Below, in pieces: positions 17,853-20,319 of a stretch of DNA of 64,000 bases; the first letter of the stretch is position 1; every line of letters begins with the position of its first letter. Below the pieces are notes generated by a model. It searched no databases. It had not been told where the DNA came from and was given only the letters and a program-made list of their open reading frames with translations. This stretch comes from Puniceicoccaceae bacterium 5H (lineage in GTDB: Bacteria; Verrucomicrobiota; Verrucomicrobiia; Opitutales; Oceanipulchritudinaceae), in contig WOUP01000019.1 in NCBI GenBank assembly GCA_009772895.1, forward strand, positions 1 to 64,000. Direction: 5' to 3'. The position numbers and the translations under genes were made by a program.

Positions 17853-17896
17853 GCAGAAAATGCAAAGGGCGGATAGGTTATGCACCTATCCGCCCC
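17853..17896 (-). terminator. terminator of micro-gene 1
   Basis: A perfect 12-bp stem, GGGCGGATAGGT (17867-17878) and ACCTATCCGCCC (17884-17895), has a 5-nt loop and is followed on the minus strand by TTTGCATTTT. It resembles the terminator of micro-gene 2 (shared GGGCGGA stem base). Confidence 0.85.
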
Positions 17897-17935
17897 AGTT
17901 AGTTATCTAATTTAGTGTATGATACGACCGCAGAT

Positions 17936-18073
17936 TTAGCGGAAGCGGAAACCCGTCCAGGACGTACCCGAGTAGGAGTACGAGGACCCACTGGTCAGCG
18001 GCGAGCGCCGAACGGCAGGCTTCATGGGACGCGTTTCCTTGTGGTTACGGATCTTGTCCGTCGGTGTATTCAT
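17936..18073 (-). CDS. micro-gene 1: 45-residue basic peptide, possible modified-peptide precursor
   Basis: Not recognised. The peptide starts MNTPTDKIRNHKETR and ends in a Gly/Ser/Tyr/Trp/Phe-rich tail (SGSSYSYSGTSWTGFRFR). It is very basic, with no signal peptide or membrane helix. The N-terminal KIRN[HQ]K block is shared with micro-gene 2, while the C-terminal halves differ; that is the leader/core layout of RiPP precursors, though no modification enzyme is nearby. Support for a real gene: own -35/-10, a conserved 5' leader, and a strong terminator 40 bp after the stop. Both micro-genes could alternatively be regulatory RNAs. Confidence 0.6.
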   Translation of the reverse strand: MNTPTDKIRNHKETRPMKPAVRRSPLTSGSSYSYSGTSWTGFRFR

Positions 18074-18093
18074 GGTTCTGTAGTATTTAAGGG

Positions 18094-18183
18094 AGGAATC
18101 ATTTCCTGCCCAAAAAGTCTCTGTATCCGTAACCTTGCTTGAAAGAACTGTGGCAACCTTACCACATTGACGGTGTAAATCAA
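18094..18183 (-). promoter_or_regulatory. promoter and structured leader of micro-gene 1
   Basis: On the minus strand, TTGATT (18183-18178) and TAAGGT (18161-18156) are 16 bp apart. The predicted leader contains AGTTCTTT, GGTTACGGAT (18134-18125) and a hairpin AGGAA-ATGA-TTCCT (18107-18094). The same items occur in the same order before micro-gene 2. GGTTACGGAT is exactly complementary to ATCCGTAACC in the coding sequence (18052-18043), so the leader can pair with codons for KIRN and enclose the start codon. Confidence 0.55.
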
Positions 18184-18246
18184 GTATTTTCGTGAAGATT
18201 CCGTTACGAAGCCAACCACTTCTGCTTCTAGCCAGAATGCGCACAT

Positions 18247-18279
18247 GAAAAGGGCGGACGAGTCAAACCCGTCCGCCCC
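18247..18279 (-). terminator. terminator of micro-gene 2
   Basis: Stem GGGCGGACG (18252-18260) and CGTCCGCCC (18270-18278), followed on the minus strand by TTTTCATG. It separates the two micro-genes into independent transcription units. Confidence 0.82.
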
Positions 18280-18310
18280 TGTTATTTTCTAGCTTAGGTA
18301 CTGAACCGTT

Positions 18311-18436
18311 CTACCAGATCCGGATGAACGCCTTCCCATTGCAGGAAGCCGCGCAACTCTCGATGAACGCCTGACGCAGGTCGAAGCGCTTGGCAGAGCG
18401 GTTTCGCTTTTGGTTACGGATCTTGCGATTGTTCAT
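18311..18436 (-). CDS. micro-gene 2: 41-residue basic peptide, paralogue of micro-gene 1
   Basis: Not recognised. The peptide starts MNNRKIRNQKRNRSAKR and ends with ESCAASCNGKAFIRIW. It shares the KIRN[HQ]K block and a basic N-terminal half with micro-gene 1; the C-terminal half is different and has two cysteines. The DNA encoding KIRN is identical over 14 bp (GGTTACGGATCTTG on the plus strand) in both copies. It has its own promoter, leader hairpin and terminator. No Shine-Dalgarno sequence is evident. Confidence 0.6.
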   Translation of the reverse strand: MNNRKIRNQKRNRSAKRFDLRQAFIESCAASCNGKAFIRIW

Positions 18437-18455
18437 GTCGCTTTTGGGAAAACGA

Positions 18456-18543
18456 CCGGAATTCATTTCCGGCCAAAGCCTCGATCCCATAACCGGTCTA
18501 AAAGAACTATGGGCTACCGTAGTCTACCTACGTCAAAAAGCAA
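18456..18543 (-). promoter_or_regulatory. promoter and structured leader of micro-gene 2
   Basis: On the minus strand, TTGCTT (18543-18538) and TACGGT (18521-18516) are 16 bp apart, the same spacing as in micro-gene 1. The leader carries AGTTCTTT (18508-18501), GGTTATGG (18494-18487) and hairpin CCGGAA-ATGAA-TTCCGG (18472-18456). GGTTATGG can pair with CCGTAACC of its own coding region through one G-U pair. The hairpin stem differs from copy 1 on both sides, so pairing is kept. Confidence 0.55.
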
Positions 18544-18843
18544 GTAAGATCCAGACAACTACGCGTTAGCGCCCCAGCTATTTCCCTCGCGCCAAGCCTG
18601 TATTCCCGCTGGTGCAACCACGATCTACATAGCTCCACGATGGCCGCACGGCAACATACGACATAATTTACCTATGTTGGTATAGTAAAATACGGACACC
18701 GCATCCGTTCCTTACGTGCCAAAACCTACACAGATATCCAGACGCCGGTAGCCCTATTTCAACAGGCTTGGCGGGCAAGTAATCCCACGAGTTACGCGGT
18801 ACCACGAATAGTTGCAGCCCCTGAAAACGGATATTCTGGGAGC
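18544..18843. other. 300-bp intergenic region without a recognisable gene
   Basis: This stretch lies between the micro-gene 2 promoter (reading left) and the exported S26-like gene (reading right). I see no convincing ORF, repeat or third micro-gene copy. An AT-rich patch at about 18661-18695 may hold a promoter for the rightward gene, but no good -35/-10 pair is visible. Confidence 0.5.
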
Positions 18844-19299
18844 ATGGCAACAACTCTGCGAAACCTGCTTGTCATCGTCTCTCTGTTCTTTGCTTCCCTT
18901 TGCTCGGCCGCCGCGCCCATTTCTTCCGTTCCCGCCGATCAAGCCCTGCGGGACGCTACGCTGTTGGCGAGCTTGCGCCCCGACTGGAGCGTCTATCAGG
19001 CAGCAGGGGACTCTATGGAGCCCTTTTACGGCGGCAACTCCCTGCTCATCGTCCAGCAGGCCGACACCACGCATCTCCAACCCGGCATGATCGCCGTGTA
19101 CCGTGATGCCGCAGGCGATCTGGTCGGCCACCAGGTGCTCCGCACTGGCGAGAAGATCGAAGCCAAGGGCGCAAACAATGCCGTCGTAGACCCCTCGCCC
19201 ATCACCGATGCCAATCTCGTCGGCATCGTCGTGGGCATGATGCACGCCTCCGGCACCGCCGCCAACGACTTGCAGGTGGTGAACGGCAAGCGCTACTAG
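18844..19299 (+). CDS. exported signal-peptidase-fold (S24/S26) protein
   Basis: 151 residues. The N-terminus is a Sec signal peptide (NLLVIVSLFFASLCSAAA). After it comes a compact S26-type domain: AAGDSMEPFYGGNSLLIV with the nucleophile-position Ser, then DLVGHQVLRTGEKIEAKGANN and a later VVDP. A His in GHQV and an Asp after KGANN fit the Ser-His-Asp pattern of archaeal/ER-type signal peptidases rather than the bacterial Ser-Lys dyad. It is unusually short and appears soluble and exported rather than membrane-embedded. It converges on a second S26-like gene across a shared terminator. Activity is unproven. Confidence 0.65.
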   Translation: MATTLRNLLVIVSLFFASLCSAAAPISSVPADQALRDATLLASLRPDWSVYQAAGDSMEPFYGGNSLLIVQQADTTHLQPGMIAVYRDAAGDLVGHQVLRTGEKIEAKGANNAVVDPSPITDANLVGIVVGMMHASGTAANDLQVVNGKRY

Positions 19300-19395: not shown

Positions 19396-19869
19396 CTAGC
19401 GCGGCGGCACGGCGGGCGTGTCGGTATAAAGCACCGTGTAGACGACCCCGATCAGGTTTTCGGGCGTCACGTAGTCCTCGTCGAGCTGGCGGTTGTGGTC
19501 CCCCATGGCGATCCAGCCCTTGGGAGATGGCTTGAGCAGACGGTGAGTCACGACCCGGCCGGCGTGGTTGCGGTAGGCGACCACCATCTCCGCCTGCAGG
19601 TCCTCAAAGGCGATCGGCGCATAGACGATAACCGTGTCCTCGCCGTAAAGGGGCATCATGGACGTTCCGCCGCCCAACATGGAGGCACGCCCTTCCCCAC
19701 CCTGCTCGACGCGCTTGGCGGCAATCAGGGCCTGCTGGACGCTCGTCTCTGAAGTGGGGGCCGGCGGTGCATCGGTCGCCGTGGTTTCACAACCGGCCAA
19801 GGCCGCCGCCAGCGCACAAACCGTGGGCACAAAAAAAGGCCGACGTCTGAAAAGCATGGCTTCAGACAT
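19396..19869 (-). CDS. lipoprotein with signal-peptidase-fold (S26) domain
   Basis: 157 residues from the ATG at 19869 (an alternative ATG lies at 19857). A lipoprotein signal ends in the lipobox ALAGC. The S26-like domain has GGTSMMPLYGEDTVIVY (Ser), VVTHRLLKPSPKGW (His) and MGDHNRQLDED (Asp), again the Ser-His-Asp arrangement. It is predicted to be lipid-anchored outside the cytoplasmic membrane. Its first codons lie inside the atp operon terminator, so expression may depend on read-through from atpC. It is distantly similar to the convergent gene at 18844-19299. Confidence 0.65.
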   Translation of the reverse strand: MSEAMLFRRRPFFVPTVCALAAALAGCETTATDAPPAPTSETSVQQALIAAKRVEQGGEGRASMLGGGTSMMPLYGEDTVIVYAPIAFEDLQAEMVVAYRNHAGRVVTHRLLKPSPKGWIAMGDHNRQLDEDYVTPENLIGVVYTVLYTDTPAVPPR

Positions 19870-19874
19870 CGGCC
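19831..19874 (-). terminator. terminator of the ATP synthase operon, overlapping the next ORF
   Basis: On the minus strand, GGCCGATGTCTGAA (19874-19861) pairs with TTCAGACGTCGGCC (19851-19838), with a single G-T wobble, and is followed by seven T residues (19837-19831). It lies 25 bp after the atpC stop. Both candidate start codons and the signal-peptide codons of the lipoprotein gene are within this hairpin. Confidence 0.85.
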
Positions 19875-19899
19875 TCAAAGGGTAAAGCTTTACGCGAGA

Positions 19900-20319
19900 C
19901 TACCCGCGCTTGCTCTCCGAAACGATCTTCTGCACCACGGCGAAGCGGGCGCGCGTCTCGAGCTCTTCCAGCACCGCCGGATCCTCGCCCTTTTCCTGGG
20001 CTTCGGTCAGGGCACGTTCGGCCTCCTGGCGGGCATCCTCGAGCTGTGAAGCGTCGATCTGGTTGACTTCGATGGCGGCTTCGGTGAGCACGCGCACTTC
20101 GTCGCCGATCACCTCGATGAAGCCCTTGTCGATCGCGATCGACTCGGGGCTCTGGTTACGGAAGAAGCGCAGCTCGCCCGGCTCGATCATCGTGACAAGC
20201 GGGATGTGTCCCGGCAGCACGTCGATCTCGCCGCCCTCTTCGGTCGGCAGCACCACGTGGTCGACCATGTCGCTGAAGACCTGGCGTTCCGGGGTGACGA
20301 TTTCGAGCTTGAGCGGCAT
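19900..20319 (-). CDS. atpC: ATP synthase F1 epsilon subunit
   Basis: 139 residues. The N-terminal beta sandwich (LEIVTPERQVFSDMVDHVVL, EIDVLPGHIPLVTMIEPG) and a C-terminal helical hairpin rich in E/A/R follow the family pattern. It is part of the central stalk; the helical tail can inhibit ATP hydrolysis. It is the last gene of the operon, 6 bp after atpD, and the operon terminator follows. Confidence 0.96.
   Translation of the reverse strand: MPLKLEIVTPERQVFSDMVDHVVLPTEEGGEIDVLPGHIPLVTMIEPGELRFFRNQSPESIAIDKGFIEVIGDEVRVLTEAAIEVNQIDASQLEDARQEAERALTEAQEKGEDPAVLEELETRARFAVVQKIVSESKRG

Follow-up and report, generated by a model that had tools for sequence, protein, structure and literature searches.

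A candidate boxA-controlled gene for a small basic protein in a family of Opitutales

Introduction

Control by boxA beyond rRNA has been described for a few gamma-proteobacterial mRNAs, among them those of suhB and of a ParE-like toxin gene, in which boxA lies in the 5'UTR upstream of a protein-coding ORF; the boxA consensus core is given as GYTCTTT (PMC5725501). The locus analysed in this work has the same arrangement, a boxA standing ahead of an ORF; coding selection acts on the ORFs called unit 2-type below. It differs from the suhB kind in that it belongs to a different phylum and encodes an uncharacterised and unclassified family of basic proteins of 41–50 amino acids (aa), that a hairpin stands between boxA and the start codon in most units, and that a promoter and boxA start is also present ahead of tmRNA and MISL genes. 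Regulation by a boxA in an mRNA leader is thus of a known kind; for the protein family and the setting in which it occurs, no description was found in searches of open-access literature for boxA with tmRNA or ncRNA, with Verrucomicrobia and with CRISPR arrays, and a search on MISL gave only general treatments.

Other described systems share parts of this arrangement. The nut/N module of phage lambda joins a boxA to a hairpin and to a peptide rich in arginine, with a boxA–boxB spacing shorter than 21–30 nt. SRA/S22 and bTHX are small auxiliary ribosomal proteins. Precursors of RiPPs are encoded by short ORFs that may stand in tandem, with a more alike N-terminal half. Each of these is compared with the locus at the point where the relevant observations are given.

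Results

Two complete units lie in tandem on the minus strand

The window is the stretch of 64,000 nt from contig WOUP01000019.1 of Puniceicoccaceae bacterium 5H (GCA_009772895.1). Its minus strand carries, from 18543 to 17866, two complete tandem units (unit 1, 18543–18250; unit 2, 18183–17866), in each of which a promoter-like pair, a AGTTCTTT box, a leader hairpin, a basic ORF, a 3'UTR motif and a strong terminator follow one another in this order (Table 1). A previous reading of the same DNA made from the sequence only (hereafter the sequence-only reading) had proposed twin self-contained micro-genes with a shared architecture, and all the elements it listed were located as it described them. 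The −35/−10 spacing is 16 nt in both units, as claimed, though the hexamers are poor: neither pair appears in the output of a promoter scan requiring 9 of 12 positions, and the G001 orthologue of unit 1 has TTGCAA at the position of the −35-like hexamer TTGCTT. The separate terminators, both of the GGGGCGG type, are as strong as had been proposed, 0 of 200 shuffles being as stable in either unit. Longer in-frame starts are available for the ORFs of units 1 and 2 (59 and 102 codons, respectively); the ATG common to relatives was adopted.

Table 1. Positions of the elements of units 1 and 2 in the window
Feature	Position	Strand	Basis or remark
Unit 1 promoter-like pair TTGCTT-N16-TACGGT (weak)	18516–18543	−	Read from sequence
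Unit 1 boxA AGTTCTTT	18501–18508	−	Predicted transcript 5' end; octamer identical in own 16S leader
Unit 1 leader hairpin GGCCGGAA-ATGAA-TTCCGGTC	18454–18474	−	Fold z −2.25 and −2.15
Unit 1 ORF, 41 aa, net charge +9, two Cys, fast-evolving copy	18311–18436	−	Syntenic partner in G001
Unit 1 3'UTR motif TAGAAAATAAC	18281–18291	−	Motif pattern
Unit 1 intrinsic terminator, GGGGCGGACGGG stem + TTTT	18250–18280	−	Fold z −5.5
Unit 2 promoter-like pair TTGATT-N16-TAAGGT (weak)	18156–18183	−	Read from sequence
Unit 2 boxA AGTTCTTT	18142–18149	−	Octamer identical in own 16S leader
Unit 2 leader hairpin GGGCAGGAA-ATGA-TTCCTCCC	18091–18111	−	Fold z −2.35; only −0.72 in longer stretch
Unit 2 ORF, 45 aa, net charge +7, family-conserved copy	17936–18073	−	pS/pN versus G001 orthologue; profile match
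Unit 2 3'UTR motif, longer variant TAGATAACTAAC	17898–17909	−	Missed by motif regex
Unit 2 intrinsic terminator	17866–17896	−	Fold z −6.3
Unit 1 possible long-range leader/ORF stem, GGTTATGG (18494–18487) with CCGTAACC (18419–18412)	18412–18494	−	Suggestive only; lost in longer fold
Unit 2 possible long-range leader/ORF stem, GGTTACGGAT (18134–18125) with ATCCGTAACC (18052–18043)	18043–18134	−	Suggestive only

The octamer AGTTCTTT occurs twice in the window, both times in the units; at least two copies were also present in 21 of 100 shuffles, so that at the scale of the window the octamer by itself does not reach significance. The architecture as a whole is above chance because it recurs in the sister species and in 13 other genomes of the family. 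No Rfam match in the window exceeded the gathering score. On one side the units are flanked by a LuxR-type response regulator (17809–17117; Pfam Response_reg and GerE) and on the other by an S24-like ORF (18844–19299, plus strand), of which the Peptidase_S24 match is below the Pfam cut-off, with atpC further out (19900–20319). Another short ORF, without Pfam family (19396–19878, minus strand), resembles the S24-like ORF by eye, and both sit between the micro-genes and atpC. Two inverted-repeat pairs, I2 (15 nt) and I4 (12 nt), join 18511–18601 with 18740–18773, in the region about the beginning of unit 1 and ahead of it.

The box has the sequence of the rRNA boxA

The AGTTCTTT box of both units fits the consensus core GYTCTTT (PMC5725501). 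The leader of the genome's own 16S gene carries AGTTCTTTGA about 120 nt ahead of the 16S start, with the same octamer, AGTTCTTT(GA). Because this octamer is shared, AGTTCTTT is by its sequence an rRNA-type boxA, identical with the genome's own rrn boxA at the one 16S locus on which the comparison rests. The sequence-only reading had missed this identity, as well as the GTTCTTT box ahead of the genome's own tmRNA gene. In contrast with the rRNA leader, in which boxA lies further into the transcript, the box of units 1 and 2 begins 6–7 nt after the −10 of the weak promoter-like pair, and the predicted transcript is short (about 250–280 nt from box to terminator), monocistronic and coding. In the four units of the genus (the two in the window and their two counterparts in G001) the ATG lies 70–76 nt downstream of the first base of the box, and the upstream promoters are weak matches.

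One copy is kept and the other diverges in the sister species

A DNA search of 55 genomes returned one other locus (L022), in G001, the one further representative of the genus in that set, in which both units are present in the same order and between the same neighbours. Unit 2 is kept between the two species (MNTQNTAIRNHKESRPAKPLVRRQPLSLSSVSSYTGGSWTGFRFR versus MNTPTDKIRNHKETRPMKPAVRRSPLTSGSSYSYSGTSWTGFRFR): its C-terminus is at least as conserved as the rest, with WTGFRFR identical, and the G006 and G007 peptides likewise keep their C-terminus (LATVRSYP.FGSSALTG.LR). Unit 1, in contrast, is only 22% identical to its G001 orthologue and divergent over the whole length. A protein search of the 55 relatives with the unit 1 peptide gave only weak matches beyond itself (best E 0.0116), and the family profile described below missed unit 1 in G000 and G001, each of which gave one match at E 0.05, unit 2 in both cases. 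Unit 1 is therefore a putative member of the family by virtue of its position in tandem with unit 2, its box and leader, the N-terminal motif and the terminator; in this genus the duplicate is diverging, perhaps with a change of role. The pattern of agreeing N-terminal halves and diverging C-terminal halves reported by the sequence-only reading thus holds between unit 1 and unit 2 in the window, and does not extend to the unit 2 orthologues or to G006 and G007, in which the C-terminus is kept.

The gene is present in most genomes of the family

Searches by synteny, by the promoter and box pattern, by the motif in the 3'UTR and with a protein profile together gave 17 units in 15 of the 17 genomes of this Opitutales family, 13 of the 15 unit-bearing genomes holding a single one; the conservation in related genomes on which the proposal of twin genes had been made to depend is thus present. 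The reading of 15 loci upstream of response-regulator orthologues revealed a single unit in G002 and another in G008, and the sequences of these two units recur in L088 (MAG CSSed165cm_401) and L089 (MAG Zod_Metabat.1145). The pattern TTGACA-N22-40-GTTCTTT had 38 matches in the 17 genomes versus 14 for the reversed pattern. They were sorted into 11 micro-genes (in G002, G003, G004, G005, G007, G008, G009, G010, G012, G013 and G015), 8 tmRNAs, 3 MISL RNAs and 16 others, the last being about the number predicted by the reversed control. The 3'UTR motif pattern added the unit of G006 and a profile of 11 peptides that of G011 (E 5.5e-8), in which TAGAAAATAAAC stands ahead of the terminator by eye and was not returned by the motif regex. 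Because the first detection of nine of these 17 units relied on a pattern requiring GTTCTTT, and those of G002 and G008 were recognised by eye with the box visible, the box is partly built into this sample; the G006 and G011 units, which were detected without it, both carry AGTTCTTT at the right position. No unit was found by profile or pattern in G014 (84% complete), nor by pattern in G016, a genome absent from the profile-search set.

Fifteen family genomes were drawn for the profile search, and 14 of them were matched with an E of at most 5.5e-8; ten of these hold a peptide from the alignment itself, three more (G010, G013 and G015) one identical or nearly identical to an aligned peptide, and G011 is the independent match. 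Unit 2, a row of the alignment, was matched at E 4.1e-15. An earlier four-row profile had missed the real G006 unit, its best match outside the genus within the family being at E 0.00345 (G006 C2). Among 177 genomes the best profile match outside the family was at E 4.2e-4, and the six matches read showed neither boxA nor 3'UTR motif. Of the nine 3'UTR-motif matches, four lay outside the family and none of these was a unit, and no micro-gene was found in the 36 matches read of the 48 (out of 60) promoter and AGTTCTTT matches that lay outside it. As far as tested by these sequence searches, the gene is confined to this bacterial family. In the window's own genome, the pattern AGTTCTTT...GACTTTTGG had no match, and an ORF and a terminator followed only at the two known units among 17 TTG-N-AGTTCTTT matches (12 for the reversed control).

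The unit 2-type ORF is coding and matches no family searched

Comparison of the unit 2 ORF with its G001 orthologue gave pS 0.59 and pN 0.24 (Fisher 2.4e-4), and in genus g3 the ORFs of the three genomes show 5, 7 and 8 synonymous changes and 0 replacement changes. Significant coding selection was also obtained for the pairs G009/G012, G009/G015 and G002/G003, the pairs G012/G015 (p 0.1) and G003/G005 (p 0.053) going in the same direction without reaching 0.05. These tests cover unit 2-type ORFs, the unit 1 pair, of which the ORF lengths differ, being left out; unit 2-type ORFs are coding and under purifying selection. Of the basic ORFs of 41–45 residues described by the sequence-only reading, that of unit 2 is therefore real; the net charges of both predicted products in the window are strongly positive (Table 1).

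Over the family the peptides have a net charge of +5 to +10 and 18–27% Arg and Lys. Their alignment (A9) shows a polar MN..T start, a basic middle in which R18 and R26 are nearly invariant, and a Gly-containing aromatic/Arg end. No Pfam or NCBIfam family was matched above cut-off by 10 peptides, no PHROG at better than E 0.13 by 11 peptides, no phage record by the unit 2 peptide and no PDB chain up to E 10, ribosomal proteins included, by profile A9, in agreement with the earlier remark that no described family is known. AlphaFold gave no usable fold for unit 2 (mean pLDDT 61, pTM 0.12, four sequences).

The sequence-only reading had considered a secreted or modified peptide and compared the pair with leader/core precursors; RiPP or bacteriocin precursors would be of this kind. 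The products are indeed small and basic, units 1 and 2 are tandem short ORFs alike in the N-terminal and unlike in the C-terminal half, and the unit 1 peptide has two Cys. In contrast with such precursors, unit 2 orthologues keep their C-terminus, the neighbouring genes vary between genera (11 units compared by eye), a single unit is the rule across the family, and the other 14 peptides scored have no Cys. None of 15 peptides scored has a strong signal-like hydrophobic stretch, the highest 11-residue Kyte-Doolittle mean being 1.16. Among four neighbours in the window compared with Pfam there was one weak S24-peptidase match. Neither the secretion nor the leader/core organisation found support, and we consider a precursor peptide very improbable.

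Leader hairpin, long-range stem and 3'UTR motif

The leader hairpin noticed previously is more stable than shuffles over 11 non-redundant units combined (p 3e-6; 15 tested, near-duplicates left out), and not in each unit: G004 has none and unit 2 reaches a z of only −0.72 in the stretch tested. A TAGAAA-type motif resembling TAGAAATCAAC precedes the terminator in 14 of 15 units (regex, up to 3 substitutions), the regex giving one further match elsewhere in the window, which has no terminator. A covariance search of 177 Opitutales genomes with the leader (model R1), as had been advised, found three units of the genus and no credible match beyond it, the leader sequence diverging fast; even unit 1 of G001 scored only 16.8 bits (E 0.37). 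A 21.8-bit match in G040, which holds CGTTCTTT, was rejected, no unit being seen there by eye.

A boxA followed by a hairpin, with a basic arginine-rich peptide encoded on the same transcript, recalls lambda nut/N, and the peptide might bind its own hairpin and join the Nus complex for antitermination or autoregulation. In the four genus units the hairpin begins 21–30 nt after boxA, a longer distance than in lambda nut, and the loops differ (AUGAA, AUGA, AUUU and AAUCAG), so that the conserved loop a few nt after boxA that characterizes boxB is not found. In addition, the ORF is followed by a terminator alone, with no downstream operon as an obvious target for read-through, and the searches of phage families and records gave no similarity. 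An N-like module seems to us quite unlikely.

When the four genus units are folded, the leader also pairs with the early codons, with one compensatory pair in the G001 orthologue of unit 2. This long-range stem, which spans the start codon and is attractive by eye in g1 and g3, is suggestive only and is not claimed here, since 68 of 500 shuffles reached its covariation. Such pairing, together with a Shine-Dalgarno sequence weak or absent by eye in most units, could mean that the structured transcript is the main product, either as a boxA decoy titrating NusB and S10 or as an sRNA, and that the peptide is secondary. The same promoter and boxA start ahead of the non-coding tmRNA and MISL genes, and the same octamer ahead of rRNA, would fit this idea. 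It accords poorly with the purifying selection on the peptide and with a leader diverging so fast that its model is credible in the own genus only. Moreover, total pairing across the start codon exceeded dinucleotide shuffles in 0 of 15 units at the 5% level (lowest value 0.06). A dual-function or regulatory RNA therefore appears unlikely.

Discussion

We favour, with moderate confidence, the view that these are monocistronic genes controlled by boxA and Nus factors and encoding a lineage-specific small basic protein, which would probably bind RNA or the ribosome. In this proposal, in which Nus binding and its effect, the transcript ends and the role of the protein are what we infer, units 1 and 2 would be paralogous free-standing genes for a family-specific protein, each forming a separate transcript between a promoter and a terminator of its own, and the transcript would start with an rRNA-type boxA followed by the hairpin. 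By analogy with rRNA and suhB, studied in E. coli, NusB and S10 (NusE) would assemble on boxA as it emerges and associate with RNA polymerase. Their binding may protect a short, structured and probably weakly initiated RNA from Rho; in addition or instead, translation of the ORF may depend on free Nus factors as in suhB, so that output would track the rate of rRNA synthesis. Output tied to ribosome supply would be expected if Nus factors act on boxA, and the product might then be a small RNA- or ribosome-binding protein for ribosome assembly or maintenance. Charge, size, the usual single unit per genome and presence across the family fit an accessory protein of this type; SRA/S22 and bTHX are of comparable size and charge, and share the expected link with rRNA supply. 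Against this, we count the lack of detectable similarity to any PDB chain and the uninformative AlphaFold model.

The other genes behind the same start bear on this proposal. Within the family, seven of the eight tmRNAs that follow promoter and box were confirmed by ARAGORN, the eighth, at a contig end, being judged by eye, and the tmRNA genes of the window's genome (L164) and of G001 (L165) start behind TGTTCTTT; these sequences suggest boxA control of tmRNA in the family. The three MISL RNAs of the family were classified by Rfam. It is tentatively, and with more doubt than conviction, that we extend the proposal to a single regulon of boxA transcripts (rRNA, tmRNA, MISL RNA and the small-protein gene), in which the protein would be a novel factor in ribosome assembly or in the Nus complex itself, dosed by free NusB and S10 in a Verrucomicrobiota lineage. 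Such a boxA regulon becomes directly testable, and the product is a definite candidate for a novel small protein associated with ribosomes or Nus factors, of a length easily overlooked in annotation. A boxA at the start of an orphan RNA such as MISL may also hint at what this RNA does.

Many nucleic-acid-binding peptides are likewise short and basic, and the product could be a regulator of small size that binds DNA or RNA and has no relation to ribosomes, having a boxA leader merely because it is highly expressed. In other families of the order, cobalamin riboswitches, which are not ribosome-related, follow the same start, and because of this a boxA need not mean a ribosomal role. Within the family, however, the classified company of promoter and box is tmRNA and MISL RNA, and the octamer marks the genome's own 16S leader; we hold such a regulator to be rather unlikely, and retain the Nus-controlled gene for an RNA- or ribosome-binding protein as our working proposal.

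Several further occurrences of this start were recorded. The family tmRNA genes lying shortly after TTGACA and GTTCTTT are L164 (C8 of the own genome), L165, L143, L146, L148, L149 and L173/L174. MISL RNA (RF03079) has AGTTCTTT directly behind the promoter in several Opitutales families (L159, L168, L169, L196 and L206 by Rfam; L203 and L204 by sequence), and in L196, L206 and L203/L204, from other families of the order, this promoter has TTGACA. The cobalamin riboswitches, likewise in other Opitutales families, stand directly behind TTGACA and AGTTCTTT (L188, L189 and L197). In L186, from position 1500 onwards, AGTTCTTT is followed, as judged by eye, by a tRNA-like gene and then by a SecE-like ORF.
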